Assembly: GCA_013407085.1 (NCBI GenBank)
Contig: JACCGJ010000323.1
Span: 29,700 to 93,699, forward strand
Origin: Atriophallophorus winterbourni
Taxonomy: Eukaryota; Platyhelminthes; Trematoda; Plagiorchiida; Microphallidae
Reading direction: 5' to 3'
Length of the DNA stretch: 64,000 nt
The notes under the pieces were generated by a model, which searched no databases, was not told the origin of the DNA, and worked only from the letters and a program-made list of their open reading frames with translations. Made by a program: the position numbers and the translations under genes. Shown here in pieces: positions 7,011 through 63,480 of this stretch. The number at the start of each line of letters is the position of its first letter. Positions within the stretch are counted from its first letter, which is position 1.

Positions 7011-7275
7011 TGTGGTGCTCACATCCGCAGCACTTACACTCCACAACCGGTTTATAGCTGTTTGCCGTCCTCAAATACAGGCATTAAGATCACTTCAGTG
7101 AGCCTTGAAGCAGTGGAACTGTAGGAAACAAAGTTAAACATGTATGCCACAATTGAATAGGGTTCGTATGACGAACCACAACGTTCAAATGAAGAATCAC
7201 AGGGTGATTCTTGGTCAAGCGCTCAAGACGTTTAAATGGACCAATTTAGTGTGGTGCTCACACCCACAACACTTA
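7011..7275 (-). repeat. Family A retrozyme-like repeat, tandem
   Basis: One unit plus the start of the next: the 10-mer GTGGTGCTCA recurs at 7012 and 7251, a period of 239 bp. A decayed hammerhead occupies about 7040-7080 on the minus strand (ACCGGTTT with GCTGTTTGCC retained, CTGATGA and GAAA lost). The second unit is interrupted by the inverted-repeat insertion at 7276-7521. Confidence 0.75.
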
Positions 7276-7521
7276 CACTCATTGTACTTCATAGTTGTTC
7301 TCCGAGCTGGTATGGTTGATTGTGGACATTTCGTCATCAAATTAGATGACATCATCAGCGAAACTTCTTTCGAAGTAAATGGGCGGTGGGCATCATTCGA
7401 ATTTATCTGCTGCGCGTCGTCCTCATCTACTGTGTGAATCATTGCATGTCCTCGTTGGCGTGATGACGAAACGTACGCAATCAACTATACCATCTCGGAG
7501 AACAACTATGAACTACAATCC
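7276..7521. mobile_element. Inverted-repeat (foldback) insertion
   Basis: About 60 bp at each end are inverted complements: ATTGTACTTCATAGTTGTTC at the left and GAACAACTATGAACTACAAT at the right, continuing through CAATCAACTATACC. It sits exactly where a family A repeat would read from its ACACTC to its CCGGT, so it looks like an insertion into that repeat. No transposase is encoded. It may be a MITE-like DNA element or a collapsed inverted duplication. Confidence 0.6.
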
Positions 7522-7559
7522 GGTACCTGAGCTACAAGTTTTTAAAACGTACACTCATA

Positions 7560-7830
7560 TTTAGCAATGGCATGCAAGTATAACTTTGTTGAGCACTTAA
7601 CCACTGTTTCAACGCTCAATAAACCTGAGCTAACTGTCTTCACCCGATGAAGGCAAGCAGCCAGAAACTGGTTGTGGAATATGAGTCCGCGGAATGTGAG
7701 CCCCATTGGTCATTTTGAGCACTTGACCCAGAATCACTCGGTGATACTGTAGTTGAACATGGTGCTTCGTCGTACGAGGCCTATTTAACAGTGGAATGCG
7801 AGTTACATTTAATTTGAGCGATGGAGCAAA
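7560..7830 (+). repeat. Family A retrozyme-like repeat
   Basis: Single diverged unit. The hammerhead region at about 7650-7690 keeps GAAA, the CTGG/GGTT helix III side and the GGC-GCC helix II, but CTGATGA has become CCGATGA, which should abolish cleavage. Confidence 0.7.
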
Positions 7831-8039
7831 ATACATTTTCCATTTTAAAGCGCAAAATTTCAGTTTCCGTTCCTCTGAAGTTGAGAACATGAACAAAATG
7901 ACATTTTACTGCGTGAATAGTGAGATTGAATCTGTGAAAGGAAGAACAAACACTGTGTGTTTCGTTGCTCAGATCCATCCATAATCGGATTAATGCACCA
8001 AGCTTAGATTTAGTGAGATCGAAAACATCAGTAAGGTAC

Positions 8040-8330
8040 TAAACAAACTTCATACTTGCATGCATCTCCATCACACACACCCCACGACCAGTTTCTTGCT
8101 GTTTGCACTCATCAGGTAGGGACAGTAAGATCAAGATCCGCATGCGCTTGAAACAGTGGAAGAATGGTAAACAAGTTGCGTTTGTATGCCAATGTTGGAT
8201 AAGGCTGGCGCGACAAACCTGTTCAATCACGCGTCCAAACGCATGTAGATTGGGTTTAAAACTATGATCATGAACAAAAATGCTCATTTGCATGCATTTC
8301 CATCACACAGACACACGTTTTCTACAATTC
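8040..8330 (-). repeat. Family B retrozyme-like repeat, tandem
   Basis: The sequence around TGCATGCATYTCCATCACAC occurs at about 8057 and 8289, a period of about 232 bp, so the insertion is slightly more than one unit. Family B shares with family A the stretch GACAGTAAGATCA, the GCTTGAAACAGTGGAAGAATG block and the hammerhead position, but differs elsewhere (CACACAC-rich flank, CGCATGCGC). Confidence 0.8.
8080..8121 (-). ncRNA. Hammerhead ribozyme, type I (family B)
   Basis: On the minus strand: CCCTAC, CTGATGA, helix II GTGC-AAACA-GCAA, GAAA, helix III CTGG, then TC before the predicted cut, and GTGGGG. Helix I pairs CCCTAC with GTGGGG over 6 bp including one T-G wobble. All conserved core residues are present; the first helix II pair is G-A rather than G-C. 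Minimal helix III is typical of hammerheads in metazoan retrozymes and Penelope-like elements, which often cut as dimers. Confidence 0.75.
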
Positions 8331-8653
8331 TGGCATAGAGCAGTCTTTGATCTATAAAGATATTCGTGCCTAGAGATGCAAACTCTTGAAAACGCTTTAT
8401 AATTCAAGGCTGTCTACAATTCTAAACTCAGTGAGATTGGACATACATCGACGTGATTTCGAGCATTTACTAGCCTTATTGCCAAAGGTATCAAATCTAC
8501 ACCTGCAACCAATCTGGATTAAACGGTCTAAGCTCGAAAGCAATTTAAGCTTCAAGAGAATTTCGTACAAGCATCTAAAAGCTTAGCAAATTCCGTAACC
8601 TCCCCGAAAAGCAGAGAATTTCAGGAATTTCTCTAACAACCCAGTAAGTTTTG

Positions 8654-9618
8654 AGTTGAACTAATCATTAATTATAGAATGAATAAAACGTTCCACCAAA
8701 TAAAGCAACAATATAGATACAATTTCACCCTTAAACGAGAATTCCATTGTAATATAGGATTCACTAAACGAACCATGATGTTCATATACAGAAGCTTAAA
8801 GTGAAACTTGCTCAAGAGATGACGATTATAAACGATCAAAGTATAGTATCGTTTACATCCTCACACATACACTTGACAACCGGTTACTGGCTGTTTGCCT
8901 TCATTAAATGTAGACGGTAAGAAGCTAATACCAAACCAGCAAGGCACCTGAAGATTATGGAGACCGTTCCAGAATCCATAGTCATCATAAGAAAGTTTGC
9001 AATGAATCTATTAAATCTTATTTTTGACAACGTGTAGCTTCTGACACCGAAGCTTCGTCAGACCACGGGTGTCAGTAGGAACACGGTTCAGGTTTAAATG
9101 GCATTTTCTTGACCAATCGTGAGTGACCTAAGATGGGCTAGATCAAGACCATTGCACAAACCTCTTTCAAGCTGCGTTAATCCCATAATTGTTTATTTTG
9201 TGTGCAGGTGCAAACAGCTTCCACTGACCGATTGCTTACGTAATCAGTGTGCACGTTAGCGGCTAGGTACGTTAATCCTAATCCGCTGCAGATTGTGGAG
9301 ATATCCCCACATTCCCCTTGTTCACCGCCCCAGACTTTGTTATTACAACTGCTTCATCGTCAAGTCTTTCCCTATAAGGTTTCACACCCGGTCTTATCAG
9401 CTCCACGTTATCAAGATCCACGCTGTGTCCCGTGTCCAGCACGTGTTCAGCTAGGGTAGACTCCTGGATCTATGATTGAAATTCATTCAAATTGCGGGTT
9501 TGTGTTCCTATTCGCTTTCTCTGTTCGTTTATCTTAGTGAGAAGTTCTCTATACGTTTGCCCAATGTAAAGAAACGGGGCAACCCTTGCACTTGATTTTG
9601 TAGATATAGTTAGTCTTT
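8654..9618 (-). mobile_element. Inverted arm of Penelope-like element
   Basis: Reverse complement of about 11606-12606 over roughly 965 bp. Read on the minus strand it carries the GIY-YIG endonuclease C-terminal region (YKIKCKGCP, LYIGQTYREL, AEHVLDTGH), the stop, a 3' untranslated region with GTCTGACGAAGCTTCGGTGTC, and a decayed hammerhead near 8880-8925. Such inverted 5' fragments are a known feature of Penelope-like elements. Confidence 0.85.
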
Positions 9619-10009
9619 CGACACGAAGAGAAGAAGAAATTAGCTTCAGTCACAAAAACGAATTTTTAGCAGTTATATTCAATTCACCAAAAAAATTAAA
9701 AAAAAATTGACAATCAGGTCCAAAGTTACAAGTTACAATTTGTCGACTGAACGATGTTTCTTGTCCGTCTTGATTGATAATTTCCACATGTGATCCAGTT
9801 TATTAGCAAATGCCGTAACCTAAAGTTTTTCGACAAAAGAATCATATCAATTCTCGGTATCTCGTAATTCGTTCAAATTTGCACGTCCAAAATTCGCTTC
9901 AGTCGATATGAATAAGTGATGCATTTGGCCCCCAGATAGCGTTAACATTTAACGAAAAATCGGAAATAATGTGTAGATTTAAAGGCCACGTAAAAAAGAG
10001 AAACCATTG
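9619..10009. other. AT-rich spacer inside Penelope locus
   Basis: Between the inverted arm and the recognisable reverse-transcriptase ORF. No motif was recognised; it may be the element's 5' leader. Confidence 0.35.
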
Positions 10010-12606
10010 CTCACCAAACTGGTCTGCTCTAGTTTGACCTGGTGGTCAAACCGCTAGATAATTGTCGCAATTTCACAAAGGCTGCCGAAAACGAATCCAA
10101 ACAATCATTAAAACAAACAATCACAGGACCGATGTAAACCTGACACAGGCGCGTTCGAAAGCAACGAGTTTGAAGTCGGAATTACAAAACATGTTATCTG
10201 ATGTTCATTTTTACAAAATTTGTGGAAAACACGATATGGTCTTGTCCACACAGATCGAACAAAGAAAAGAAAGTCAAAAACGTAAGTTCACCAATTTACT
10301 AACTACAAAAGTTAAATATAGCTCTTTTGTTGACAGTCAGGTAATCTGATAGGCCTGTTCTCGCAGACGGACCAAAGATTAGTGTAAATGGACTTCAGTA
10401 AGAAATTTCTAAAAGCGGAAGATATCATTTCATGTGTAGAATCAACCCTCAACCAGCTATCTGAAAAACAGGCAGATACAATTCGAAACGGTATATCTAG
10501 TGTTATCTAAAATGGATTCACCCTACGCATCTGCCTTGAGCTGCGCAAATAAGAGGGAATAGTGATCACTAAGGCAGACAAAGGAAAGGTAACCGTGATT
10601 CTTTCTAAAAGTGATAATAGGGGTTAGGCTCAGTCGCACCTTGCTGAAGACCCGTATCAGGTTAATGACAACCGTAGATTAACGACGATTATGAAAAACC
10701 GTGAAGGGGTAGTTTCAAGACAACTACGAGGAATTAAGGAAAACCTTGTTCACAGATTATGTTTCATGCTCTACCCAAAATCTGCTCAAACACCCAGGAT
10801 CTATGGACTATTGAAAATACATAAGGTAGGTGTCCCCTTAAGGCCCATCCACAACAAATGATTCGGCTAAGTACCTCACATAGCTGAACAAACCGCTGGT
10901 TATTAACACTAATTCTTTCACTAAAATTCTTTGGATTTTGTTTTTCTTGCTTAAATGCCATAAAAGGATGAGATGATGGTTAGCTTCGACGTGAGCTCTT
11001 CGTTCATGAATGTTGACACAACCAGTGCTTTGGAATTAGCAAGGAAGTCACTCAACTGCGACGCGACCTTGAAGGATAGTACAAACTTGAGTGTAAAACA
11101 AATCATCAATGGTGCATCAATTTGTCTAAATATGAACCACTTTTAATTTAATGGATAGCTATACAAGCAAAACGATGGTTTAGCGATGGGCTCACCTATT
11201 TCTCAGTGCTAGCAAATATGTACAAGGAGCATTTCGATGAGATAGCCTTATAAAACGATGCTTTAAAACCATTCATCACCATCAAGCGTAACATACTAAA
11301 AGCGTTTCATAGTTATTACAATTATTTGAATCCCAATATCCAGGTTGCAAAAGAAACTAAGTATACAGAAGGGACACATCAGTTCTTGAACTGTCTTGCG
11401 CAAAAGGACAATGACATGATAAGAACGACGTTATATCGTAATCCGAAGGACCGAGGTGTAGTTTTAAGTTACACATCTACGCATTCTTAAAGGGCATTTT
11501 AGCCCTTAGCGAAATTTCTGTTCTATAAAATTGAACACCTCTGCAGTGACGCTGCCGATAAGAAACGAGCTCATCAAGAAGTTAATCGTCGACTTGCAGA
11601 TTCCATAGGCTTGTGCGAATAACAATATCTACAAAATCAAGTACAAGGGTTGCCCTGTTTGTTTACATTGGGCAAACGTATAGAGAACCTCTCACTGAGA
11701 TGAACGAACAGAGAAAGCGAATAAGAACACAAACCCGCAATTCGAGTGAATTTTAATCATTGATCCAGGAGTCTACCCTAGCTGAACACGTGCTAGACAC
11801 GGGTCACAGCGTGGATCTTGATAACGTGGAGCTGATAAGAACGGGTGTGAAACCTTATAGGGAAAGACTCGACGATGAAGCAGTTGAAATAACAAAGTCT
11901 GGGACGGTGAACAAGGGGAATGTGGTGGATATCTCCACAATCTGGCGTTCGCTTATGCACTGGATTAGGGTTAGCGTACGTAACCCCTAATGTGGACACT
12001 GATTACGTAAGCAATCGGTCAGTGGAAACTGTTCGCACCTGCACACAAAATAAACAATTAAAGAATCAACGCAGCATGTAGGAGGTTTGTTCAATTGTCT
12101 TGATCTAGCCCATCTTAGGTCACTCACGATTAGTCAAGAAAATGCCGTTTAAACCTGAACTCTGTTCGTACTGACACCATTTGGTCTGACGAAGCTTCGG
12201 TGTCAGAAGCTACATGTTCTCAAAAATCTACTTTAATCGATTCATTGCAAACTTTATTATGATGACTATGGATTCCGAAACGGTCTCCATAATTTTCAGG
12301 TGCTTTGCTGGTTTGGTATTAGCTTTTTACCGTCTGCATCTGATGACGGCAAACAGCTAGTCACCGGTTGCTAGGTATATGTGCGAGGGTGTGAACGACA
12401 CTATTATTTGATCATTTTTAATCGTCTTGAGCTATTGAGCAAGTTTTACTTTAAGCTTTTGTTTATGATCACTCTGATTCGTTTTACGAATCCTATATTA
12501 CAATTACATTCAAGTTTATGAATGGATTTAAATCTATATTGTTGCTTTATTGGGTGGAACGTATTTTGTTTGCTCTAAGTGAGGATTAGTTCAACCCAGA
12601 CTATAG
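10010..12606 (+). pseudogene. Penelope-like retroelement (RT + GIY-YIG), dead
   Basis: Degenerate Penelope-like ORF. RT signatures in order: PRIYGLLKIHKVGVPLRPI at about 10790-10848, SFDVSSSFMNVD at about 10982, QNDGLAMGSPIS at about 11165. The segment expected to carry RYVDD is missing: sequence passes from LKPFIT to IKRN and then to the HQFLNCLAQKD block. The GIY-YIG nuclease follows at about 11620-11990 (YKIKYKGCP, then YIGQTYREPL in the next frame, AEHVLDTGHSVDL). At least ten stops or shifts are visible. Beyond 11990 lies the 3' untranslated part, with a decayed hammerhead at 12333-12375 (CTGATGA kept, GAAA changed to GTCA). Family members prime reverse transcription at cut DNA or chromosome ends and can supply machinery to small non-autonomous repeats. 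Confidence 0.88.
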
Positions 12607-12624
12607 AGTATATGATTAATTTTC

Positions 12625-12834: not shown

Positions 12835-13150
12835 CAGTGGTCTTTTATTAATCATCATGAAAACTCGACCAGGAATCACTCTCTGATAGTGTATGAAGTT
12901 TTTAGTTCTTCTCTATCTCCTATTCAAAAGTGGCTTTCCAATGTAATGACGTTTACTACTTTTCTACTGTTTCAAGATTCACGGAACATTTTGTTTACTG
13001 TCTCCACCTCATGACGGCAGGCAACCAGAAAACGGTTGAGGAGTTTCAGTGCGAGGACATGTGAGCAGCACGGTTTATTGAACTTGAGCGTTTGACCAGG
13101 AATTACTCTGTGATTCTTCATTTGAACATCCTGGTGCGTTTGGTATTAAA
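12835..13150 (+). repeat. Family A retrozyme-like repeat, tandem
   Basis: GACCAGGAATYACTCT occurs at 12867 and 13094, a period of 227 bp. A hammerhead region lies near 12998-13040 between them; CTGATGA is CTCATGA, so the core is damaged although GAAA is kept. Confidence 0.75.
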
Positions 13151-13668: not shown

Positions 13669-16600
13669 ATGGGATTTTTAAGCTACATTTTTCTGACGTT
13701 GCTCTCCTGGCAAATTGGTATTGCGGACGATGAGTTGCGATATCACATTCAAAAAGGATACGAGGCTATCATTGAGGAATTTCCAAGTATTGTGCTACTT
13801 CTTGGTAAACAGCATCGTTGTACCGGGACGCTGATAGCAAAGAATATGATCTTGACCGCAGGTCACTGTGCATGTGGGGATCCAATGCTGGAGGTTAGTC
13901 AAACTTATTGTGACGCCAACCCCAAACCCATTTCATTGACTTGGTATAACACTTATAATATTAACAATGTAAGTAGCCATACTTGAAAGCCAGTGTATCT
14001 ATATTAATATACAATATCTATAATTGTAAGCAAGTTTCCCATCCATTTTTGTATCATATAGTTAGATAAAAGTTTTCTGACTTTAGTCACAATATAATCT
14101 CGTCGAAGTTTCATGTATTAATTATAGCTATGAAAATAGCATTGCAGTCACTTTGTATTTTTTTTTAACTCCCCTCGCTTACATGGTAATTACACCAGTT
14201 TATTATTGTTTATATTGAATAAAATTAGGTGTATATTGTCTCAAATATCATTTCTCACTTACAAAATCGGTTTCTGGCTCAGCTTAACGTCATTAGCTAC
14301 AGAGAGTAAGATCAGTATCAGTGAGTCTTAAAACAATGAAAAATATAATAAAGTTGTTTAAGCGATATTTGGAGAATATGTTGTTTATATTTGTGACTAC
14401 TTAACTGTGCCAGGCCCATCGCTTAAATAAGAGCGAAACTCGAGTTCAGTACTTCCATTATGGACCGTCGTGATCAACTTTGTGAATAGTTCAATGGGCT
14501 TGGCACGGATGAGTAGTCACAAATATAATAAAGTTGTATTTGAATGCTATTGCTCATTAAACAGTTTTCAATAACTTAATTACCAAGGGTTTGCTGGTGA
14601 AGAACTCACGACGCTTAGAAAAGACTATTGAGGAGTGGGACTCGCACATCCGGTTCATGCACATCACATCTGACTGTTTATGGGATGAGTGTCCGATTGC
14701 TAGATGGCCTCTGACCTTGTTTATTTTTCCCAATACATGCCATGAGGTGTGCAACAGATGAAACGAGTAATACCACTTCGTTCGATTCAAATGTCGGACA
14801 TTCTATCGGTTGGTTTCATTCACAACCTTCGTTTGATTCGCATAACTAAAGACCATTATTCCGATTTCAAGTGAAGCAGTTGTTCATTTCATCGCACATC
14901 CGTGAACTTCAAAGTGCATTTACTTGTGTGATATACTGCGCTCCTCGAATGTAATAAATGGAGTTCAGTACTTGCGAAAAGTTATCAATCTCTTCTACCA
15001 GAATTTTCATAATCAGATAAATGCAATGCCATACAGCCACCAATCCGAATTGCTGGTAGCGGTCTGATTTTTACTGCAGGCTAAGCTAGCATCCTGCTAT
15101 AACAACAATAGCGTTTGTGTACTTCGAATGTGCGATTGTACAGTACGTCTGTGTTGTGCGACTAACACCTTGCTAAATTGATTGGCCACCGGTAGTGAGA
15201 TGCATGCTGAAACACGCTGGAGTCTCAATAGACTCTCTATTCTCTATTTCTTTTCTCATATCTGTCTAGGCCTGGGCAACTTGACAGTAACTTCGCCCAG
15301 TGCGGCACTTTGCCTGGATCAGGCTTGTGTTTTCATAATATACTGCGATATAAACCGTGTAAAGTATCATCTGTAAACTGGGGAAGAGTGAATGCAGTTC
15401 ACGGTCGCTGATTGCCTATCGCTGTCAGCGCTGCAGGAGAGATTGTTCCTCCTGCATCGGACTGTTTAGTTACTCGAAATGCGGCGGAATATGGAACCGT
15501 CATGCACTTGTGATATAAATCCATTGTGGATATCGAACGTAGGAGGCTGACTGCGATGATACGTGGCGTAATTCTTGGATAAAAGTTGTCACACGGAATG
15601 AAGCCATTTCCAGTGTGATTCAATAACAAGGGTATTTGATACTACTGCAGTTTATACCGAAGTGAATGACGTGTACAAATGCTCTTAGTTGCAGTGCAAA
15701 TGAAAGACGAAACAGGTCACCTCTTTACATGAACAATTAGGTTTACATTAGCAACCGGTGTCAGGTGTTATCCGATTCATTATTTTGAAATTGCACGCCA
15801 GGATTGATATGACTGACAACATTCTCCTAGCGAAGTCTATTCTAGATATAAGAGTTATGGTTGAGAAAACATTTTGCTTTACAACAACCACAGGGTCGAA
15901 TTATAGATACAAAAAGCATATACGTATTAATAGTGTGAGTCGGTCCTCATGACTGGGTTAACTAAGAGAAATGATTCCCAAATAGGCGCGGGAAATATCT
16001 AGATGATATGCCGGCTGACCTTAAGGATCCTCCTTCGGTCGATGTGGTCCATGGATGTACATCACAATCGCATGATTTTTCATGTTCTACAGCTTTTTGA
16101 ACGACTAAACAGTCCGATTCGGGAGGAACAATCTCTCCTGCAGCGCTTGCAGCAATAGCCAGAACTCGGTTGTAGGGTATCAGTTGGACGCCGGCGGCGT
16201 GATCTGCGTTCAGCAATCAAGAGCTGTATCTTTTCCTTCTCAGCTTGCGGACGACGCTTTACACAATGCCTCTAATGTTAAAGGTCAAGAGGAAGTTCTT
16301 CCCAACTCACGGGGATCTTGAGGAATAATTTATTTTATTTATACGAAAATATTTTTGTAGCTGCATTTCAAAACGGTTGCTATTGCAGAGTAGCTAGTAA
16401 CAGATTTGAATATTAAATCATCCAGAATTTCTTAAACATTCTATACGTAAATTTCCGTTTGTGGTTAACCTAAATTATTTGGCCGACGTGTCAATTGGCT
16501 CGTAGCTTTCAACAAGTCAACCTACATGGACTACACATAACTTTGGTCATCCATAAGTACCTTGTGTGCTTGACAACGAATCACTATGTGATTCTGTGTT

Positions 16601-18738
16601 TGAACATCGTGGTTCGTTGTACGAACCCTATGCAACAGTGGCATTCAAGTGTAACCTTGTTTACCAATTATCCACTGTTTCAAGTCTCACGGAACCTAAT
16701 CTTACTGTCTCCACCTGATGACGGCAAACAGCCAGTAACCGTTAGTGGAGTGTAATTTCGGGGGATGTGAGCAACACATAACCTTACTTGTATTTAAGTT
16801 TTAAGGAAAACGTGTAAACAAAAACACGAAAAGTATGTTTTCCGAAAAAGAATTTGACGCGAAGCTTCCTTATTACGGAGTACATTAGACTAAGCATTTT
16901 ATTGTGCAAGATTACTGTATTATTATTTTGTTATCCTACGTGTTATAGTTAGTTTTTGTTAGCGTGTTTCGAGTGGCTTGAAAGAATGCAAAGGAATAAT
17001 TTCGGTATCGTTTTGCCGTTATATCACCTCATCCTCAAAAGAGCCACAAAACTGGCAGCATGTACCAGATATTATGTGACAGAACAAAATCCTCACTAGG
17101 CGGAGAACGATGATATCTAATTGATTATTGAGTCTGTAGATAAAAGCACGACATACTCGGATGAGTAAAATAAAGCGTGCATTCAATCAAGTTTTATGGA
17201 TGAGCAGCAGGTCATCAGCATGGCGGACTCCTTGCGGCGTTTACTGTCTTGTGTCATAGCAAGCTTTTCTCACAAAGGATCACAGAAATGATTTTAAAGC
17301 TACCAATCTGCCGTACGTAGAAATCACGCAATTGGATTAAGTCTATGTTTGGTGAAACGCGGACATGCGTCTAATGCGAACAGCTGATTGAAAATTGTTG
17401 ACTGCCAAGTCCAACATGCAGTGTTTACAATGCTCAATATTTTATTAACACTTATACTTTACTACATGGATATATTTTAGCAAATATCGCCCTGGATCAC
17501 AACAACCTGTTGCTTTGGCTTGCTATTTCCGCTCTCTCACACAGACATGCACTCACTACAACTCGTTTCAGGCTGTTTGCACATATCACGAAGGGGCAAT
17601 ACGTTCAGGATCCACCGGCCTCGAAATAGTGGAGAAATGATAAACTAGGTATGAACTTCTAAATCATTGTTGGATCAGGTTAGCACGGCCAAACGTGTGC
17701 GATTAAACCCATGGAACTTAGAACTCAGAAAGTTTTATGGTAGAAAAAGCAGTAAGCTTAACATTAACCATAGGATGGCGAGGTATATGGATTAGAACTA
17801 TAGAATATCTCAAAAATCAATAGGGACAGTCACATACCGCGTGGTTCGTCATATACTCATCGAGTTTAGAATCGAAAACCGCAACAGGTTCCGAGCGTTT
17901 GAAATAAAATATCCGCATGTAAGAACAGGATTCCCATGCTCGTGGATTCAACAAATGTACTTGATCAGGGTGATCGTGCCAGCCTTATCCAACAATAATC
18001 TACAAGTTCACACATCGTTGTTTTATTCCCGACTGATTGCCGCAGTTTCTACAGAGGAATAGCCGATTGTTACCAACCCTGGAAAACTTATCCCCAATCT
18101 CGATTCTTTCAGGCCTACGCTAATGTTACCAATTTCGATCATCGTCGAAATGAAACGGTGCAGATGCGGTCGATCGTGCGTCGTTTCATTCCGCGGTCAT
18201 ACAGAAACGCATGCCGTGTACTATCGACCAACAAACCCAAGAACCATAACAAACTGGGTGGATCTGCGGACATGGCGATCATGATGACGGATCAACCGTT
18301 TGACCTCACCGCCGATTTCGTGGAGATTGCACGGCTGGCATTGGAATCGAGGCACAAATTCGGTGAAAAGATGAACAATACCGAGAAGTTTGACGCGTTT
18401 ATTGTGGGTTTCGGTAGAGATCCCAGTAGTGGAACAAGTGGAATTTTGCGATATGGTAATTCCAATTTATAAATTTCTCATTTGAAGGCTACATCACAAT
18501 ATCCAAATGTCCTTGGTATCTACGCGTGGACACAACCGGGGCATATTGTGCCGATTCCAGTGAGAACGAACAAGCCGCTGAGGTTGGCGACAGCGGTGGT
18601 CCTCTGATTGGAATCGCTGGTCAAGTAATCGGCGTTACATCCATCGCCGTCGGCGGGTGGACAGTTTTCTCTAGTGTCACGACTCACGAAGATTTTATCC
18701 ATCATCACTTGTACGAACGCATCAATGATACGTTGTAA
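13669..18738 (+). CDS. Secreted S1 (chymotrypsin-fold) serine protease
   Basis: Three exons: 13669-13968, 18113-18455, 18488-18738; phases match and give 297 residues. MGFLSYIFLTLLSWQIGIA is a signal peptide, so the product is secreted. Catalytic His66 is in LTAGHC on exon 1, Asp153 in SADMAIMMT on exon 2, Ser250 in VGDSGGPL on exon 3. Cys51/Cys67 give the His-loop disulfide and Cys222/Cys235 the next. Zymogen cleavage before IQKG (residue 27) would replace the usual IVGG. Around the pocket the sequence is AAEVGDSGG: the trypsin Asp189 position is Ala and Cys191 is Glu, so trypsin-like Arg/Lys specificity is not expected. Intron 1 is 4.1 kb and full of repeats; intron 2 is 32 bp. The C-terminal HEDFIHHHLYERINDTL corresponds to the terminal helix. 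Substrate unknown; secreted proteases of this class are common in flukes. Confidence 0.9.
14255..14570 (-). repeat. Diverged family A repeat split by family C insertion
   Basis: 14255-14357 matches the minus-strand family A block (CGGTTTCTGGCT, AGTAAGATCAG, GTGAGTCTTAAAACA). The match resumes after 14537 (TTTGAATGCTATTGCTCA against the family A TTGTATGCCACTGTTG). Between them lies the family C copy at 14358-14520. Confidence 0.55.
14358..14520 (+). repeat. Truncated family C repeat with foldback end
   Basis: The 3' half of family C (AAATAAGAGCGAAACTCGAG onward) lacking CTGATGA. Its first ~33 bp (from about 14389) are the inverted complement of its last ~33 bp (GGGCTTGGCAC...GTAGTCACAAAT). 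The 17-mer AAATATAATAAAGTTGT flanks it at 14341-14357 and 14521-14537 and may be the target duplication, although family C copies end with rather similar AT-rich sequence. Confidence 0.6.
15130..15360 (+). repeat. Unclassified dispersed repeat (family E)
   Basis: Shares CATATCTGTCTAGGCCTGGG, GCGGCACTTTG and GATCAGGCTTGTG with 59440-59700 (same strand) and 60445-60570 (opposite strand). The intact right end in those copies is CATACCATACCATAC, suggesting a non-LTR 3' tail. Confidence 0.6.
15370..15560 (+). mobile_element. RTE-like LINE 3' end with C2H2 finger remnant
   Basis: In one plus-strand frame the sequence reads CQRCRRDCSSCIGLFSYSK, the zinc-finger C-terminus found at 44181-44290 (CQRCGRDCSSRIGLFSH). 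The downstream ATATCGAACGTAGGAGGC corresponds to the family's 3' end, ATCGATCGAAGGAGGCC. Confidence 0.65.
16015..16325 (-). mobile_element. RTE-like LINE 3' end fragment
   Basis: Minus-strand copy of the same LINE terminus as 44118-44390: CATCGACCGAAGGAGG end, C2H2 finger region, and the upstream CGCCGGCGTCCAACTG block. Lies in intron 1 of the serine protease gene. Confidence 0.75.
16530..16790 (+). repeat. Family A retrozyme-like repeat
   Basis: Just over one unit: ACACATAAC occurs at both ends (about 16532 and 16771). Contains ATCACTATGTGATT and TTCGTTGTACGAA palindromes. The hammerhead at about 16700-16745 has intact CTGATGA and helix I (CTCCAC with GTGGAG), but GAAA is GTAA. Confidence 0.8.
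17155..17275 (-). repeat. LINE 3' untranslated fragment
   Basis: Minus-strand piece of the LINE 3' region that also occurs at 26700-26830, 57730-57840 and 61740-61870 (GTCATCAGCATGGC, CCTTGCGGC, ATAGCAAGCTTTTCTC). Confidence 0.65.
17545..17720 (-). repeat. Family B retrozyme-like repeat, decayed
   Basis: CACACAGACA, AGGCTGTTTGCAC and GTTGGATCAGGTTAGCACGGCCAAACGTGTG match family B at 8060-8240. A short inverted piece (GATCAGGGTGATCGTGCCAGCC) lies at about 17960-17985, only ~130 bp before protease exon 2. Confidence 0.65.
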
Positions 18739-19029: not shown

Positions 19030-19325
19030 TAGAGGACCAAAGTGATGTGTTGCTCACATTCCCCGAAATAACACTCCACTACCGGTTTCTGGCTGTTTGC
19101 CGTCATCAGGTGGAGACAGTAAAATCAGGTTCAGTGAGCCTTGAAACAGTTAAAAAGCGGTTAACAAAGTTAAACTTGTATGCCACTGTTGTTTACCGCT
19201 TTTCCACTGTTTCAAGGCTCACTGAAGCTGATCTTATTGTCTCCACTTGATGACGACAAACAGCCAGAAACGGTAGTGGTGTGTAAGGGATGGGGATGTG
19301 AGCACCACAACACATTGTTTAACTT
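19030..19325. repeat. Palindromic family A repeat
   Basis: The left half is a minus-strand and the right half a plus-strand family A sequence, giving two arms of about 120 bp (19048-19170 and 19193-19318) around a ~22-bp spacer. Each arm carries a hammerhead region; only the left one is intact. Confidence 0.8.
19074..19115 (-). ncRNA. Hammerhead ribozyme, type I (family A)
   Basis: 42 nt on the minus strand: CTCCAC, CTGATGA, CGGC-AAACA-GCCA, GAAA, CCGG, TA before the predicted cut, GTGGAG. Helix I pairs perfectly over 6 bp, helix II over 3 bp (GGC/GCC), and helix III is the minimal self-complementary ACCGGT. All invariant core residues are present. The first helix II position is C-A rather than G-C and the cut triplet is GTA rather than GTC, both expected to slow cleavage. 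Confidence 0.75.
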
Positions 19326-29249: not shown

Positions 29250-29370
29250 ATTGTGGTGCTCACATCCCCATCCCTTACACACCACTACCGGTTTCTGACT
29301 GTTTGCCACCATTAGGTGGAGACAGTAAGATCAGGTTCAGTGAGCCTTGAAACAGTGGGAATGGTAAATA
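29250..29370 (-). repeat. Family A retrozyme-like repeat fragment
   Basis: GTGGTGCTCACATCCCCATC, CACTACCGGTTTCTG and the GAAACAGTGG block are present. CTGATGA has become CTAATGG on the minus strand. Confidence 0.75.
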
Positions 29371-49600: not shown

Positions 49601-52488
49601 TGAGTGAAACTGGAGGATGAGTACTCTGTGGTTTACAGGGTTGCCCACAACGTGTCACGAAGACTTGTCTGCAGCATGTTGAGAATAGCTGAGGCGAGAT
49701 CGAAGTTATATGTGGAGTAACAATTAGGCATGTGGGCCGCTGTGTCAACTGACCTTGACCGTGTTCACTTGTATTAGATTGATGTGGATACACACTAGTA
49801 GGAAAATCGACCACTGATCCTGGCCATTCCCAAGAGACGTGACAGCGTAGGCGTACTGTAGGCTGTTTAGTGATAAGGTCAAATCAGTGGTTGATCACTA
49901 CTTAATCAGGTTCCCTGTCCTGACTATCACCCTTGGTGTGACGAAGCTTCTGCGTCACAAGTGAAACGATACCCAAAAACTGCTCTGACCGATTTGCATT
50001 ATGAATACACGAACGGTCCCAACCATATTCCAATCGATTGCTTGTCTGGGGCAATTTGAGAATAGCTGAGGTGAGTTCGAAATTATAAGTGTAGTAACAA
50101 TTAGCTCGTGATCTCTTATTAACCTAACCCAGATCATTATCAACCCAACTAGTTTAAGCATCATCACGTGATATTTATTTCCCTTTTAAAGCGTGTCTTG
50201 TAGAGCTTGTTGTGAAATAACGAAAAATATCGAGATTCCGATATAACTAAACCACGGAATCAACGACAATTCAGTATGATAAACCTCACAAGAAAACGAA
50301 CAAAACACCACGCACGAATTGTTGAAGAGGTTTGAAATGCCACGGTATGTTTGAATTGGTGTCGGCCGAAAAGTGTACCAGAATCGATCGGTCCTTCACC
50401 GGCTGCATGTTTTTGATCAGATCAGTTTTCGCTCGGGCAAATTCACTGTTCATTCCCACCCCGGTTTTCTAAGAGAACGGAACAAGAAAGATGCTTAGAT
50501 TTAGCACGGTAAATGCAGAAATTCGAGTCATAGTGAGGATAGATCGTTTAGACGGTTTTATAAAGCCACAGGGATTCACAGAACCAACTCTAGTACTCTA
50601 AAGTGATTCAGGCATCACTCTTTGTTTTAGGCTGCAGCGATCCCATCTGAGACTACGGTTGCTATACTCTTTGCACTTGGACACGATGATGACGTAGGTG
50701 GAGCGCTAATCGCGCGCTTCCTGTTGATATGAAGAACTCCACTCTCCGGCAAAACACAAGAGCAGACAGCGCCGAGAAGACCGACTGTAACGAGAGCACC
50801 CTCCTGACGAATAAAACAAGCCAGATTACCTGATCGACCAAAGCCGCAACGGAGAGAAGTTGTTGCCAAGGTACAGAATGGCTTACCTCCAGATTGAGGT
50901 CGCAGAGGCATCAAGAGAGCTATTAACCATCAACACTCAACGTGGGCTCTTCCAGTGATCAGGATGCGCATGCGCTTGAAACAGTGGAAGAATGGTAAAG
51001 AAGAATTGCGTTTATATGCCACTGTTGGATGAGACTGACACAACCAGCCTGTGCAATCATATATAGAATGGATTAAACGAAGCTCCTCAGTTGTATGTAT
51101 TTCCATCACACACACCCAACGACCGGCTTCGTGCTGTTTGCACTCGTCAGGTAAAGACAGTAAGATCAGGATGCGCATGCGCTTGAAACAGTGGACGAAT
51201 GGTAAACAAGATTTGCGTTTATATGCCACTGTTGGATGAGACTGACACAACCAGCCTGTGCAATCATATATAGAATGGATTAAACAAAGCTCCTCAGTTG
51301 TATATATTTCCATCACACACACACCCAACGACCGGCTTCATGCTGTTTGCACTAGTCGGGTAGCGATAGTACAATTAGCATGCGCATAACTTGAAATAGC
51401 GGAGAAATGGAAAACTGAGATCGCAAACCACTATGTGGGTCTTAGAGGTGATTTGATACTTATGTTCAATATACTGCATACTCCCAACCATCCCCTAAAT
51501 CAACTATTCACGCGACTACCACGCAGAACCAGCCGGAGTCACGACTATACAGTACATATTCCTGACTCGAGACTGAACTGTCGAAGGTACTTTTATTCTG
51601 TACGTGTATGCTTTACCTGGAACTGCCTACCTTGTAATGTTGCACATTCACCCAACTTGGATATATTCAAATCGGATTTGGACAATTTCATGTTGACCAA
51701 TCCAAACATTGAAACAATATATTCTGCATCATAAAGCTTTGAACCAATGCATCCAAGTAAACTATACATATTTACCCTATCAAACCGGTTGAAAACAATT
51801 TTCTGCTCTATGTATTTTTACGTGATTCCTGAACTAATCAGTAGGCAAACAAACCCCGTTTTACTACCTATGTTATTTGTAATTCGCATATTATTCTGTG
51901 GTTTTTGTAAAGCTATGTGCTTTTTGGACCATTGAATTGAATTGAATTGAATTGAATTGTGGGTGGGTACATGTGATTGAAGAGGTTGCTCGTGCTGGAC
52001 TTACCCAACAATGGCTTACACGTTCATAATCTTGATTTATCTTCAAAAAAGCTAGTTATGCAACCAAGAGCAATGACTGGAAAATGCTGGGTATTGGAGA
52101 TTCAACCGAATGTGAAATTTCGAAAGAATACGTTGCACATCGAGTCCCATCATCCTAATCACAGTCAGCAATACCTCGATAACACATATACAATTACAAG
52201 AGGGAATTATGCTTGCAAGGAGAAGGGGAACAAACTTTGCTCTTGGCACACAAGCAAGTAATGTGAATGATAGACGAGGCGCGAGCCGGAACTCACCCGA
52301 CAGAAGACACGATAAAGCGGGAACCCAGCGTATCCGAATCCAAGCATACCTATACCCGTGGCCAAAAGATAATTTAAACGGCTACGTTGACGCAATTCTT
52401 CTTGCTTTCGGGTGAAAAACCCGCGAGTACATTTGATCCCGACTATGGGACTATGGGAGCAAATTAGCCGCGGAGATCCCAGCAGCAT
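43685..52488 (-). CDS. COX11: Cytochrome c oxidase assembly protein COX11
   Basis: Five minus-strand exons, all phase 0: 52488-52297, 50468-50316, 48770-48639, 47091-47050, 43849-43685; 227 residues. COX11 is an inner-membrane copper chaperone that helps insert CuB into subunit COX1. Residues 1-37 form a basic mitochondrial targeting region, 38-59 a transmembrane helix (LLATGIGMLGFGYAGFPLY) followed by conserved Cys63. The intermembrane-space domain includes KTGVGMN, VKDRSILVHFSADTNSNIPW, VAPGETALAFYSAENPTDRP, the copper-binding CFCF (160-163, exon 4) with EEQRLNPHEQ, and VDMPVFFFLDPEYANDPR with LNYTFFQS in exon 5. It is slightly short against animal relatives (~250-275), mostly at the N-terminus. 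Exon 4 is only 42 bp and its donor (GTCGGT) is weak. Intron 4 contains the assembly gap; introns also hold LINE, MULE and family B/D repeats. Confidence 0.95.
44118..44940 (-). mobile_element. RTE-like LINE 3' end with C2H2 finger
   Basis: Best copy of the C-terminal region: open blocks 44936-44577 (FTYLGSTIADNLSLDTEIDK, KLNAFHLRSIRRILNISWMD) and 44543-44181 (MEYGRIPKDLLYGELQLGSR, HNKALGIAPASWKELALDR) ending CQRCGRDCSSRIGLFSH. The latter fits a C2H2-type finger, a known C-terminal feature of some invertebrate RTE-like proteins. The 3' end is ATCGATCGAAGGAGGCC. 5' truncated; lies in COX11 intron 4. Confidence 0.9.
44941..45335. other. COX11 intron 4, unannotated
   Basis: No feature recognised between the LINE and the MULE terminus. 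Confidence 0.35.
45336..45888 (+). mobile_element. MULE-type DNA transposon remnant
   Basis: Starts with the 24-bp terminus GGTTTACTGACACTTAATCC... shared with 48842 and (inverted) 60421-60444. It then reads transposase remnants: EMQRKLSELGIKAD, PLNDVVDTFEILAESMP, EGWHHALRS-like and WTFLNGLQKD, the order of a Mutator-like (MULE) transposase C-terminal half in several frames. Runs into the assembly gap, so its right end is not visible. Confidence 0.75.
45889..46888. other. Assembly gap (1000 N)
   Basis: Exactly 1000 N, probably a placeholder length. It interrupts the MULE remnant and COX11 intron 4; all COX11 coding exons are outside it. Confidence 0.98.
47380..47840 (+). repeat. Family D dispersed repeat
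   Basis: About 460 bp. Shares GGGAGGGCATTTCATCTAAG, the ACCCGATCGCGG block, the GACTCGAACAAACGCCGAGT block and AGATAGTCGCAC with 48177-48590, 55835-56330, 58445-58860 and 62865-62935. The 3' end has an AAAGT-type tail (AAAAGTAAAAGTAAAGTAAA), as in retroposed elements. The minus strand stays open for ~100 codons in three copies. Confidence 0.8.
47872..48070 (-). mobile_element. RTE-like LINE 3' end fragment
   Basis: Minus-strand LINE terminus, diverged: TCAGTCGCTGTTGACCATGG end, GTCCGATTCGAGATG finger region. Lies in COX11 intron 3. Confidence 0.65.
48177..48590 (-). repeat. Family D dispersed repeat
   Basis: Opposite in orientation to 47380-47840, with the tail (read on the plus strand as CTTACTTTACTTTTG) at its left end. 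The plus strand is open from 48178 for 185 codons, but the last part of that frame is antisense COX11 exon 3. Confidence 0.8.
48818..48841. repeat. (TG)n microsatellite
   Basis: Short TG run that merges into the TGTATGAT target duplication of the adjacent MULE element. Confidence 0.8.
48842..49139. mobile_element. Non-autonomous MULE element
   Basis: About 298 bp, ends GGTTTACTGACACTTAATCC and its inverted counterpart CTGGCGATTAAGTGACCGGC (49115 onward). TGTATGAT occurs at 48834-48841 and 49140-49147, consistent with the 8-10-bp duplications of Mutator-like elements. Internally it retains a short piece of transposase reading (FLNGLRKDC, about 49050-49087, minus strand). Lies in COX11 intron 2. 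Confidence 0.75.
49140..49899. other. COX11 intron 2, unannotated
   Basis: GAGAATAGCTGAGGYGAG and GTAGTAACAATTAG recur at about 49680-49730 and 50050-50105, so part of this is a repeat of unknown type; nothing else recognised. Confidence 0.35.
49900..50160 (+). repeat. Penelope-like 3' region fragment
   Basis: CACCCTTGGTGTGACGAAGC, TGCGTCACAAGTGAAACGAT and ACTGCTCTGACCGATTTGCA match the 3' untranslated region of the Penelope-like element near 12170-12260. Confidence 0.6.
50935..51420 (-). repeat. Family B retrozyme-like tandem array
   Basis: About 2.3 tandem units: ATATGCCACTGTTGGATGAG occurs at 51014 and 51221, a 207-bp period with high identity between units. Two hammerhead regions lie at about 51114-51155 and 51324-51365 (minus strand). 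The first keeps CTGACGA, a perfect GTGC-AAACA-GCAC helix II and a GTC cut triplet; GAAA is GAAG and helix I is weakened. The second is more decayed. The array sits in COX11 intron 1, next to a CR1 fragment. Confidence 0.85.
51425..51960 (+). mobile_element. CR1-like LINE, 3' end with tandem tail
   Basis: Open 99-codon C-terminal block (GLRGDLILMFNILHTPNHPL, LNCRRYFYSVRV, HSPNLDIFKSDLDNFML), ~200 bp 3' UTR, then five to six GAATT units at about 51931-51958. Short tandem repeats at the 3' end are characteristic of CR1-clade elements. Very similar to 1312-1865. Confidence 0.9.
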
Positions 52489-53668: not shown

Positions 53669-54079
53669 TATCGAAATTAAACACTTGCGCATTCTAATTT
53701 GCACACTGGAGCTTTCCTGTTTCAAGCATTATTCAACCCTTTAGACACTCAGAAACATGAACATCTTGAGTCATTTTATTTACTTGATACATACCGTTGA
53801 TAAATTTTCTGGTTCCAAAGTTAAATTCCTTGTGAAGTATGGGAGAGCGCATAATTGTCGCATGAATGTGCGGCCTCTGAAAGTCAAATTACGATTCCAC
53901 GATTTAGCTGACACGCCGATTTGATGACGAAATTAACTTCACAAGATCGTATAGACCACCAAACTGAAGCTCACCATCGATGTTGGATTTATATATCCAC
54001 GTACAAATCATTGTGCAATAGCAAGGTGTAATTTCCGAACTTCTCGTTAAAGTCTTGTAAACACTTATTCCGTTTTTTT

Positions 54080-58444: not shown

Positions 58445-58860
58445 TGTTAACCAACAGGAGAAGTGGAGAGGGTGAGTGACTGGAGCCTGAAAACCAGTTT
58501 GCTTCGGGCAGATGGAGCTCGTTAGCCTGGGAGGGCATTTCATCTAAGGGAAGGTAAACCCTGATTTTAAACCTCTGCTGCCTTGCAAGATACTCGATCG
58601 CGGTAAAGGGTTCGAGAGAAAACTCTGAGGAAAAATCTGGAACAGAGTTTCGTAGACGGTTAGTTGGTGCACACCACCTTTTTCTGGCAACTCCCTGATG
58701 CCTTGCAGGTCGCACTTGGTTGTGCAAAGGCTAGAGAAGCTGACTCGAACAAACGCCGAGTGGTGCTGGGGACGATGCTTTGTACCCAATTTCCCAAGAA
58801 TCTTCATTGAAGCCGACTCATCCACCAGGAGATAGTCGCACACAAGTAACAAGTAAGCAC
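58445..58860 (+). repeat. Family D dispersed repeat
   Basis: Same orientation as 47380-47840 and very similar; the 3' end reads GATAGTCGCACACAAGTAACA followed by AGTAAGCA, a variant of the pentanucleotide-like tail. Confidence 0.8.
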
Positions 58861-59440
58861 AAACAAATCCACGTGAACACCAGTAATACTCACCTTCTCA
58901 AATGAGCAACATGTTCAGTTTGCGAATAAAATTTCTCCGTAATGAGACGAACAGCCTGGCGCGGTTTCTCCCACAACGCGGTCGGATCGAGGAACAACTG
59001 ACCTTGATAAAACTCGGACCAAACATCCTAAGAGGGATAATAATGGCATGTCATTTCAAAGGAGGGAAACCAGAGCTCGACTAGAATGGAACGTACGATT
59101 GCTTGGGGAGCAAGACAAGGCCAGCAAGCATAGTTCTCGCGGTCACTGGGTGCCCCGGAATACAATGGATTGGTGTAGCGCGCACGAATGTCCGGTTGTT
59201 CCAAATAGGACCTAGGAGATCGAAAAAAAATGACACGAGCAGGAAATCGGAGAAAAAGCCATCAAAAACAACAACTATGATTTAATCGAATTCGCTGACG
59301 GGGAACCGAAACACAAGTTCCGAATAAAGTGGAAATTAAGTGTTACAAGTGGTGATGTGTACAGAACGGAAAGTGATTGTAGTCAACTAAAATCGACTGT
59401 ATGCTGAGTTGAAATAAGTAGGTCGGCAATTGACAGACCG
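58861..59440. other. No recognisable gene
   Basis: Short open frames only; no family motif or shared repeat recognised. Confidence 0.4.
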
Positions 59441-60444: not shown

Positions 60445-60570
60445 CTGGTCGACATGGCATGGTATGGTATGAAAGCACACAAGCCTGATCCAGGCAAAAT
60501 ACCGCACGATCAGAGACTGCACGTGGGCTAAGATACTGCCCAGGCCTAGACAGATATGAGGGTGTAAATA
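60445..60570 (-). repeat. Family E repeat, inverted copy
   Basis: Reverse complement of 59590-59700, with the GGCATGGTATGGTATG tail next to the MULE terminus. Confidence 0.65.
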
Positions 60571-60999: not shown

Positions 61000-61375
61000 A
61001 TATCGCCAGCATGCAACTCCAAGGACGGTCCCAAGCCCGTCTGAGAAAGGAGGAGGGTTGGGCTTAGAGCTAGCAACCCTATCCCGTAAAACCTACATTG
61101 CTACGGAAACGGTGACAACAGATCCGTGGTTCGGTCATGTCTGCAGGATGGATCCCAGTTCGCATACGAAGGTAGCCATTCACTGGCGTCCGCAAGGTGA
61201 ACGAAAAGGGGACGGCCGAAGGAAACTTGGCGCAGAACGTTGGAACGCGAACTACATGCACAAGGATTCACGGTGCAGACGGTAACGGAAGCAGCGACAG
61301 ACCGGAACCACTGGCGTGAAGTTGTCTTTGCCTCATGTGCCACCCGGTACGGAGAGGAATGAATGAAATGAAATG
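61000..61375 (+). mobile_element. LINE C-terminal fragment (third family)
   Basis: WFGHVCRMDPSSHTKVAIHW and RPQGERKGDGRRKLGAERWN match the WIGHVLR...W.PEGKRKRGRP.TW C-terminal motif of RTE-like LINE proteins, and LPHVPPGTERNE then stop matches the usual LC..R..ERNE terminus. No RT core remains. Confidence 0.75.
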
Positions 61376-61554
61376 CAACTTTTTACCAAGTTTTGATCGA
61401 CAGACACTCAGTGAGACGATGTGACAAAATCTGGAAAAACACTATCATGCGGCATGCATAGTTAAGTGGTATTTTCAAAGATAGTAAGCTTTAACTAACA
61501 CAAAGAGGTGTGTACATTGGCAACGAATATTAATCACAAGCTTTCGGAAGATAT

Positions 61555-62345
61555 GTGGATTATCATCATCATCCCCATAGACAACATAACAAAGGTAGCA
61601 CGTACCGAATGCTTAACTGCCACAGAACCATGAAAAAGTAAAATCCTAAAAGATGGGGAAGGGTGGAACTTAAATAGCTACGGTTACTATAGAACAAACT
61701 GGGATGAGGTGCCTACATCTCGAATGGAACATACATTCAAACAAGTTTCGTGAACGAGTAGAGCGTCATCAGCATGGCAGCTTCCTTGCGGCTTTCACTG
61801 TCATGCATCATAACAAGCTTTTCTCGTCACTCCGCTTGACAACATACAAGGTTAAGCAAACACTCCAAGAAGATGCTTAGTGCAAGACCGCCATTGAACA
61901 AGGTTTCTGGAGCGTAACTAGCCATTGCGATATATGATCGCGGGGACACCAGCCTGGAAGACGCGCTGCGCCGACTTTGGAAAGGTTACTAGTAAGGGTT
62001 TGTAACTGTCTATGCCAAGTAGCAATTTGGCCACCCCGAGATTTACGCCAATCAGGATGTGGCGTCACAAAAAGAATCCGTCTTGGAAGTCTGTGGTCCG
62101 GCATCCGTAAACCGTGACCCAACCAGCGTAACCTATGCAGGTTGATCTGCTTCTCTATATCAACACTACTACCCAACAACTTATTTCGGAGAGCATAATT
62201 ACATATGCGACTGTACCAGCTATCTCTCGAAATGCTGCAGAGACATCGGCTGTCAAATACTTGAAGACACCGAGTTTCCAAGTTTCGCAGCCATACTGTA
62301 ACACAGCCCGAACTGTCGCTTTATAGACTCTACCCTTGAGTAACA
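61555..62345 (-). mobile_element. RTE-like LINE C-terminus and 3' UTR
   Basis: Open 134-codon block at 62281-61877: FDSRCLCSISRDSWYSRI, LHRLRWLGHGLRMPDHRLPR, PDWRKSRGGQIATWHRQLQ, ARLPGWCPRDHISQW. The 3' UTR runs to a GATGATGATGA end near 61563. Same subfamily as 56940-57915, and its least decayed C-terminus here. Confidence 0.88.
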
Positions 62346-62864
62346 GAGACAGTCCTTTCGTACGCCAAAGATGACCTTAGTTGCGGAATGCTACGGTCGC
62401 CTTAGAAATACATGCCGAGACCTTGTCATCTAACGATGCAGAATGATCAATTGAACTATCGAGATAGTAAAACAATCTACAGTCTCAAGCATGCTAGCAG
62501 TTATGAAATACCAATATGTGGAGCAGCACCGTCTGGCACAGCATCAGAGCAGGAGACGATAAAAATACCATTCGGGTTCCGGGAGGACGGCATCGGAACA
62601 CTTTGAGCGACAACATGCACGGAAACACGGGGCAACCGCCACCGCACTCAAACGATGAGCAATAGGAGATGAATGCGGTAAGGGATTGACGTGAGTCGCC
62701 TAGCATCAAACCGATGGATAAATAAGATCACACTGACAGGCATGTTGTGTTTTGCCTATATAAGATAGGCGTACCGTCGTATCGAGAACAAATACACTTA
62801 ACCAACTGGCTTTGTCTGGTGTTGTGGGATTCGTGGGTGAATAAGATTAGGGTTGGAAAAGGTT
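62346..62864. other. No recognisable gene
   Basis: The first ~100 bp continue the LINE (minus strand, diverged). Beyond that no exon or repeat was recognised. Confidence 0.35.
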
Positions 62865-62935
62865 GGGCTCACTTACTTTACTTTACTTTGTGCGACTATC
62901 TCCTCCTGGAGGATGAGTCGGCTTCAAATGGGGAG
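62865..62935 (-). repeat. Family D repeat, 3' end only
   Basis: Tail plus terminal ~55 bp: ACTTACTTTACTTTACTTTG followed by GCGACTATCTCCTCCTGGAG. Short 3' fragments are what 5'-truncated retroposition would leave. Confidence 0.75.
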
Positions 62936-63149
62936 GTAAGTGAGTGTAAATCGCTGGGTCGACTGTCCACGAAGTCTGTGTGAACAATGTACTAGGTATT
63001 AGAACAATCAAACTGATGTAATCCTTCCTCTCTATATACACTGATATGACATCTTCCACTAGGTGCGCTAGGTTGTCGCAAACATTCTCCCGGCAACTGC
63101 TAGTACCCATTTTACATCTGGGTATGATGAAGAACGGAATTTTCCAACA

Positions 63150-63480
63150 AGCATGATGGCGGCAAACAGCCAGAAACCGGTAGTGGAGTGTCATTTCGGA
63201 GTATGTGAGCAATACATCACTTTGGTCATCCATAAGCGCCTTGAGTGCTTGACCACGAAGCACTATGTGATTCTGTGTTTGAACACCGTGGTTCGTTGTA
63301 CTAACCCTACGCAAAAGTGGCATTCAAGTATTATTACCTTGTTTACCATTTATCCACTGTTTCAAGGCTCACTAAAACTAATCTTACTGTTTCCACCTGA
63401 TGACGGCAGAAAGCCAGAAATCGGTAGTGGAGTGTCATTTCGGGGGATGTGAACAACACATTACTTTGGTAAGCCACAGC
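63150..63480 (+). repeat. Family A retrozyme-like repeat, tandem
   Basis: About 1.4 tandem units: CAGAAAYCGG at 63171 and 63415 gives a period of 244 bp. The left copy begins inside its hammerhead (ATGATGGCGGCAAACAGCC), so the insertion boundary falls near the ribozyme. Confidence 0.82.
63391..63432 (+). ncRNA. Hammerhead ribozyme, type I (family A)
   Basis: TTCCAC, CTGATGA, CGGC-AGAAA-GCCA, GAAA, TCGG, TA, GTGGAG. Helix I is 6 bp with one T-G; all core residues are present. As in other family A members, the helix II entry pair is C-A and the triplet GTA. Confidence 0.7.

Follow-up and report, generated by a model that had tools for sequence, protein, structure and literature searches.

Hammerhead repeats of a trematode genome, likely retrozymes, and an insertion footprint that points to Penelope-like elements

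Hammerhead repeats in the window

The stretch analyzed here, hereinafter the window, comprises 64,000 nucleotides of the trematode Atriophallophorus winterbourni (contig C296, JACCGJ010000323.1, positions 29,700 to 93,699 of the forward strand) within an assembly of 537 Mb. It contains two families of short repeats with hammerhead ribozyme motifs, A and B, together with a degenerate Penelope-like element and other repeats. A first-pass annotation made from the letters alone had described the hammerhead-like repeats, and they proved to be real: 19 motifs of 42 nt, 14 of family A and five of family B, were identified when up to 11 substitutions against the family motif were admitted. The copies were as follows.

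19030..19317, both strands: family A head-to-head composite of a minus copy (19030-19191, perfect A motif 19074-19115) and a plus copy (19189-19317)
24923..25252, both strands: family A head-to-head composite of a minus part (24923-25057, motif 24963-25004) and a plus part (25077-25252, motif 25068-25109)
24912..24920 (left) and 25258-25266 (right): target-site duplication TGTGCATTT of the composite 24923-25252 (mismatched-pair control, p 0.03)
63156..63476, plus strand: family A, 1.3 tandem units (245-bp unit); of its two hammerheads, 63391-63432 has an intact core and 63147-63188 is broken in its 5' part
16535..16785, plus strand: family A copy, hammerhead 16709-16750 with GTAA in place of GAAA
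7016..7262, minus strand: family A, decayed, motif 7039-7080 with a GTT triplet
7568..7803, plus strand: family A, decayed, motif 7638-7679
12864..13140, plus strand: family A, decayed, motif 13002-13043
29252..29371, minus strand: family A fragment, motif 29280-29321
8040..8314, minus strand: family B copy, motif 8080-8121, core intact, G-A at 10.1-11.1
50957..51415, minus strand: tandem array of family B, 2.2 copies with a period of 207 and decayed motifs at 51115-51156 and 51324-51365
28002..28067, plus strand: family B fragment, motif 28002-28043

The three cores previously called intact were found at the positions given for them (8080-8121 and 19074-19115 on the minus strand, 63391-63432 on the plus strand), but two of them lack the ACCGGT ascribed to all (ACTGGT at 8080, ATCGGT at 63391). 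A fourth core, at 24963-25004 on the minus strand, has a single mismatch in helix I. The pattern CTGATGA-N6-30-GAAA occurred 14 times in the window against 1.52 expected, a number reached in none of 100 shuffles; four occurrences belonged to A or B, five to a tRNA-type short interspersed nuclear element (SINE), and five to neither. In an Rfam scan of the window, 51115-51156 was the sole A/B motif reported (23.9 bits).

Unit sizes were borne out, being 207 bp at 50957-51415 and 244-245 bp at 63156-63400. The tandem layout ascribed to the repeats holds for 50957-51415 and 63156-63476, whereas several copies are head-to-head inverted pairs (19030-19317, 24923-25252); in the first of these, both outer ends lie close to the main start site of the family. 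The repeat placed at 17545 is a very weak member, 11 substitutions from the family motif. In the motifs of the window and the sampled genome loci combined, the triplets agreed largely with those proposed (GTA in 49 of 60 A motifs, GTC in 68 of 90 B motifs), except that six decayed A copies in the window (motifs from 3194, 7039, 7638, 8872, 12334, and 13002) contained GTT. The helix II entry was C-A in 50 of the 60 A motifs and G-C in 68 of the 90 B motifs, as had been proposed, although the best B copy of the window (8080) has G-A. Inverted composites, target-site duplications, a Penelope-like element at 8937-12310, and hammerheads in the SINE are new relative to the first-pass annotation.

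Ribozyme sequence and folding

The A hammerhead is composed of CTCCAC/GTGGAG, CTGATGA, C-GGC-AAACA-GCC-A, GAAA, ACCGGT, and GTA, and the B hammerhead of helix I CCCTAC/GTGGGG, CTGATGA, GTGC-AAACA-GCAC, GAAA, ACCGGT, and GTC. Both are of type I with the catalytic core, as in retrozymes. The best B copies scored 32.9-34.4 bits against RF00163 (cut-off 34). In A the core is conserved, though C-A occupies 10.1-11.1, and L074 and L079 gave no Rfam match at E 0.1. Given this mismatch, A and B may differ in activity.

The predicted monomer fold leaves helix III unclosed, and two motif copies cofolded as a double hammerhead 7.1 (A) and 4.1 (B) kcal/mol better than two monomers. The minimal type I hammerheads of A and B are predicted to fold properly only as a dimer, which agrees with the dimer cleavage reported for minimal hammerheads of Penelope type (cited in the relevant part of PMC7761336).

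Compensatory changes, which the first-pass annotation had named as a check, were found between the families (helix I pair 2-41, helix II pair 10.2-11.2) and not within A or within B. Pairing was kept in 424 of 516 cases within A (shuffle mean 424.2) and in 660 of 804 within B (657.4), no better than under independent decay, and hammerhead cells paired in 82%, against 31-50% when slid. Covariation was rejected as proof of selection, with 5 pairs changed on both sides vs 5-10 in slid controls. No claim is made of a stable circle fold (z -1.2 for A, -2.0 for B, and -0.1 for the window B; mononucleotide shuffles).

Genome-wide abundance and unit structure

A pattern search with a 34-mer of the core, allowing up to two mismatches, returned 10,297 matches for A and 9,057 for B genome-wide, about 19,000 together; the reversed patterns returned none for either family. 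Unit searches were scored for 40 of 3,882 A candidates and 40 of 1,649 B candidates, from which whole-unit copy numbers are not derivable. The units are non-coding, tandem, and multicopy, with sizes of 207, 233, and 241-245 bp as expected of retrozymes. The unit of 233 bp is that of B elsewhere in the genome, and one locus (L028) harbored 12 whole B units in a row. In A, a whole unit between two part units was found at 15 or more of the 40 scored loci, though not at all of them. GC content was 0.44-0.46 in three A/B units. The units gave no coding match and are too small for the reverse transcriptase (RT) and GIY-YIG endonuclease that Penelope-like elements encode.

Insertion footprint of families A and B

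Family A was sampled at 20 fetched of the 40 scored places and in 16 further stretches, excluding L076 and L088, which duplicate L075 and L082 by their flanks. Aligned A copies stop at ACTTT(G) after a stem-loop, about 35 nt past the hammerhead, and the 3' ends, taken from BLAST limits, fell in unit positions 60-80 at 18 of 25 loci (17 genomic and eight in the window; L073 and the two duplicates were left out). The B sample contained 28 genomic and two window loci, of which three arrays running off their loci were excluded from end counts; 15 of 27 loci ended in unit positions 60-80 and eight more in 155-185. The fixed 3' end of both families lies 24-40 nt after the ribozyme.

An inverted fragment abutted the 5' side at 10 of 26 A loci, and inverted 5' parts were present at seven of 30 B loci (a 19-bp match in L029 was excluded). 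The outer end of the composite lay at a start site in seven of ten cases for A (0.19 expected) and in six of seven for B (0.22 expected), with a binomial probability of 0.0007 for each family; the start-site windows of these tests were chosen after the 3' ends had been seen. Judging from the genomic ends, A and B appear to start internally, at a fixed site near the hammerhead and on both strands.

For A, the duplication score of a locus's own flank pair averaged 7.68, against 5.63 in 600 mismatched pairs, and reached 9 or more at 10 of 25 loci, against 18 of the 600 pairs. In two of these ten, W16530 and W7011, the match consists of element sequence, and in L090 it is of low complexity. Duplications included GAAACTTCTTCA, TAATTTGTACTAT, and CAATAATACT, the latter two surrounding composites. 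At L075, L080, L082, and L091 the inverted part is enclosed between the two copies of the duplication, which indicates that the composite entered in one event. For B, clear duplications were identified in L017, L019, and L026, for example AGTTACCCAGTTC and GATTTTATGT around composites. Duplications of more than 4 bp, as known from retrozymes, were clear in A and weaker in B, and those around some of the composites measure 9-13 bp.

Five B loci (L012, L017, L022, L031, L032) start at unit 74-79, right at the RT start, with near-whole unit numbers. This pattern, seen after the fact, could reflect one or more full turns on a circle.

The first-pass annotation had regarded A and B as retrozymes, and on sequence features (short multicopy units that do not code for protein, type I hammerheads of the minimal kind, GC content, and duplications of more than 4 bp in part of the copies) they likely are. 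As a repeat class, retrozymes in a fluke are ordinary; A and B are set apart by an insertion footprint that points to their mobilizer.

Penelope-like elements of the genome

The Penelope-like element of the window and its surroundings consist of the following features.

8937..12310, both strands: degenerate Penelope-like element in head-to-head arrangement, with 8937-9615 on the minus strand and 10036-11601 and 11606-12310 on the plus strand
12181..12224, plus strand: remnant of the element's own hammerhead, GAAA lost; mirror copy at about 9022-9069 on the minus strand
12311..12598, plus strand: A-like unit adjoining the Penelope tail, motif 12334-12375; mirror image 8652-8936 on the minus strand, motif 8872-8913

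Both outer ends of the element lie at its tail site (CTTTGCTG), and remnants of RT and of an endonuclease-like region were found in it. Two of its pieces gave no Pfam match to RT or GIY-YIG, and intact relatives of the element match PF00078-bearing Penelope proteins. An 872-aa frame at L070, found with a piece of the element, matches Penelope-type proteins at up to 48%. The Penelope protein matches include Dicrocoelium (48%), Clonorchis (51%, part), and Opisthorchis (43%, part), so that the trematode origin proposed in the first-pass annotation is likely. The A-like units at 8652-8936 and 12311-12598 mirror each other with an identical junction to the Penelope tail, an arrangement that would result either from insertion of Penelope into an inverted pair of A units or from insertion of a transcript joining Penelope and A.

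Long Penelope open reading frames occur in tandem copies about 2.75 kb apart, and a hammerhead (TTGGT-CTGACGA ... GAAACGTT-ACCAA) sits in the repeat between them; it was not reported by the Rfam search. Twenty Penelope 3' ends were fetched, of which 17 were usable and 15 lay at one of two sites: eight at c1 (TATTTTC) and seven at c2 (CATTACATT or ATACTTTG; two of the seven are duplicates of others by flank), with two elsewhere. The nearer site lies 38 nt past the element's own hammerhead. Clear head-to-head composites were identified at eight of 30 loci, with further inverted parts in L048 and L068, and six of eight outer ends were within 5 nt of c2. Duplications were detected in two of three cases tested (14 bp at L041/L092, 9 bp at L044/L093), and no clear one was found at L056/L095.

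Other elements in the window

21010..21395, both strands: tRNA-type SINE, head-to-head, with HH9-like hammerheads at 21080-21133 (minus) and 21265-21318 (plus)
21001-21013 and 21416-21428: 13-bp duplication ACGTTTAGCCTTT flanking the SINE composite 21010-21395

The tRNA-type SINE with its HH9-like hammerhead, which we take to be Sm-alpha-like, was located at 6571-6700, 14421-14536, 21010-21395, 25920-26005, 53042-53250, 53458-53663, and 54076-54285. Its hammerheads gave the top hammerhead scores in the window, 35.3-39.2 bits, below the Rfam cut-off of 52. ARAGORN found no tRNA in the window; the tRNA likeness was judged by eye. Another element (47449-48557 and 58470-58897) has inverted arms of about 360 bp around a spacer containing a fragment of a long interspersed nuclear element (LINE). 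A weak twister-P1 match at 61010-61061 (30.2 bits, cut-off 67.2) is likely a chance match.

A Penelope enzyme as the probable mobilizer of A and B

Fixed ends, composites, and, in part, duplications are common to A, B, and the Penelope-like elements, and for this reason we hold, with moderate confidence, that A and B, likely retrozymes, were inserted by the RT of the genome's own Penelope-like elements. With a purified Penelope protein of the anole, both strands were cut and extended, and reverse transcription began within the RNA, close to the hammerhead, at two sites that are identical on both strands (PMC11167929). The footprint described here is what such chemistry would leave, which points to Penelope as the mobilizer. 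An abutting inverted partner was present at none of 11 LINE ends and at 17 of 56 A and B loci (Fisher 0.029; sampled sequence). The LINE ends, 11 without and 13 with two query copies, come from the sampled sequence. B and the Penelope start region (TATTTTGTTTCATGGTTATG) share about 20 nt (p 0.010-0.013); such sharing of start-site sequence is suggestive, a hint rather than proof. Neither A nor B matched the Penelope tail significantly at a second site (p 0.37-0.87), and a stem-loop rule for the start site was dropped, as the A tail folds well (z -2.9) and the Penelope tail does not (z 0.75).

In the route that we propose, a tandem A or B copy would be transcribed. In the transcript, each minimal hammerhead, with a third helix (ACCGGU) too short for closure on its own, would dimerize with its neighbor, and the RNA would be cleaved. 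The template for copying would be either a multimer that had escaped cleavage or a circle formed by ligation; any copy that exceeds the distance between cut site and start site requires cut sites to be intact in its template, which means a circular RNA or a multimer left uncut. Both strands of an AT-rich target would be cleaved by the Penelope protein, and copying would begin within the RNA, at a constant position 24-40 nt downstream of the hammerhead, on one or both strands. A single start would give a copy ending at that position, whereas two starts would give copies joined head-to-head, with a start site at either outer end and a target-site duplication of 9-14 bp.

Several observations weigh against mobilization by Penelope. 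The outer end missed the start sites in three of the ten A composites and in one of the seven of B. B duplications were few: a score of 9 or more was reached at four of 27 loci (through element sequence in one case) and by 20 of 702 pairs with mismatched flanks. Penelope composites compared with LINE ends alone gave p 0.06. A shared little with the Penelope start region (p 0.04-0.13 for subfamily 1, 0.30-0.71 for subfamily 2), and an antisense control (A of L074 vs subfamily 2) scored 25, above all sense scores. The SINE and the inverted element at 47449-48557 likewise form inverted pairs, so composites are not unique to hammerhead repeats of the A/B type. Further, conservation of the ribozyme above background was rejected (0.053 in the A ribozyme, 0.037 in the rest of the unit), and most A hammerheads carry the C-A mismatch at 10.1-11.1. 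The anole enzyme used uncut RNA, and its hammerhead depended on protein (PMC11167929); a loss of fast cleavage in A, therefore, would not necessarily stop A from moving.

An alternative, conceivable though unlikely, is mobilization by a LINE: A and B would be SINE-like, their inversions the product of ordinary twin priming, and the hammerhead a passenger. LINE machinery also gives duplications of 9-14 bp and 5' inversions, and the tRNA-type SINE of the window makes the same composites. Twin priming, however, would place the outer ends of inverted parts anywhere, whereas 13 of the 17 A/B composites have them at fixed start sites, and the 11 sampled LINE ends lacked abutting inverted partners altogether. 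Nor was any LINE tail matched to A or B, although no search aimed at this was made.

We regard it as improbable that A and B derive from Penelope terminal repeats by truncation instead of forming a family of their own. In three Penelope loci, BLAST matches to the A and B query units did not exceed 12 nt, and the Penelope hammerhead differs from theirs in sequence, even though an A-like unit adjoins the Penelope tail on both sides at 8652-12598 and B has the 20 or so nucleotides in common with the Penelope start region. Outside the window, only L063 among the sampled Penelope loci gave a B match, about 200 nt away, so that the A-Penelope abutment looks local; A as a general part of the Penelope terminal repeat was rejected, the abutment having been seen at 8652-12598 only. 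Least of all do we expect A and B to be satellites spread by recombination, with hammerheads as relics: insertion is needed to account for short, scattered copies that have fixed ends, duplications, and inverted parts, although the long B arrays (L028) and the lack of visible selection on the ribozyme between copies speak for satellites.

We see an evenly balanced case for the broader proposition that animal hammerhead repeats are Penelope parasites, which copy the layout of hammerhead and internal start and are inserted head-to-head by an enzyme that primes both cut strands at once. If so, the footprint would name the element that moves metazoan retrozymes, a mobilizer long sought, and the same route would serve the hammerhead SINE of tRNA type. 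In the cited parts of PMC7761336 and PMC7229834, animal retrozymes have no conserved motif telling which autonomous element moves them, and Penelope is named as a likely candidate only. A footprint common to A/B and Penelope in one genome makes this candidacy testable, since an in vitro Penelope assay exists (PMC11167929). Our full-text literature search returned no paper joining retrozymes, Penelope, and internal initiation.

Comparison with known systems

Sm-alpha of Schistosoma is a fluke hammerhead SINE with dispersed copies. A and B resemble it as dispersed fluke repeats with a hammerhead but, unlike it, have no tRNA-type promoter arm, and the SINE of the window is its better counterpart. 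Penelope-like elements with hammerheads were reportedly described by Cervera in 2014 and Lunse in 2017, both cited in PMC11167929. The Schistosoma repeat W36.2 also belongs in the context of the Sm-alpha hammerhead SINE (PMC8490949, in the part cited).

Metazoan non-LTR (long terminal repeat) retrozymes, in the sections of Cervera and de la Pena (2020, PMC7229834) drawn on here, are 170-400 bp long and non-coding, carry type I hammerheads, and occur both in tandem and as dispersed copies; their GC lies below 50%, their duplications exceed 4 bp, and platyhelminths are among their hosts. A and B are like them in unit size, hammerhead type, tandem and dispersed copies, GC content, and duplications, and their hammerheads are minimal, a kind likened to Penelope motifs in the same sections. 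The fixed internal 3' end and the head-to-head composites of A and B go beyond that description. Unlike Penelope-like elements, A and B code for no protein, and the sequence that they share with those of this genome amounts to about 20 nt at best. In contrast, the minimal hammerhead of predicted dimer type, the apparent internal RT start downstream of it, the apparent use of both strands, the tandem copies, and the tail signature are those of hammerhead Penelope-like elements (PMC11167929).

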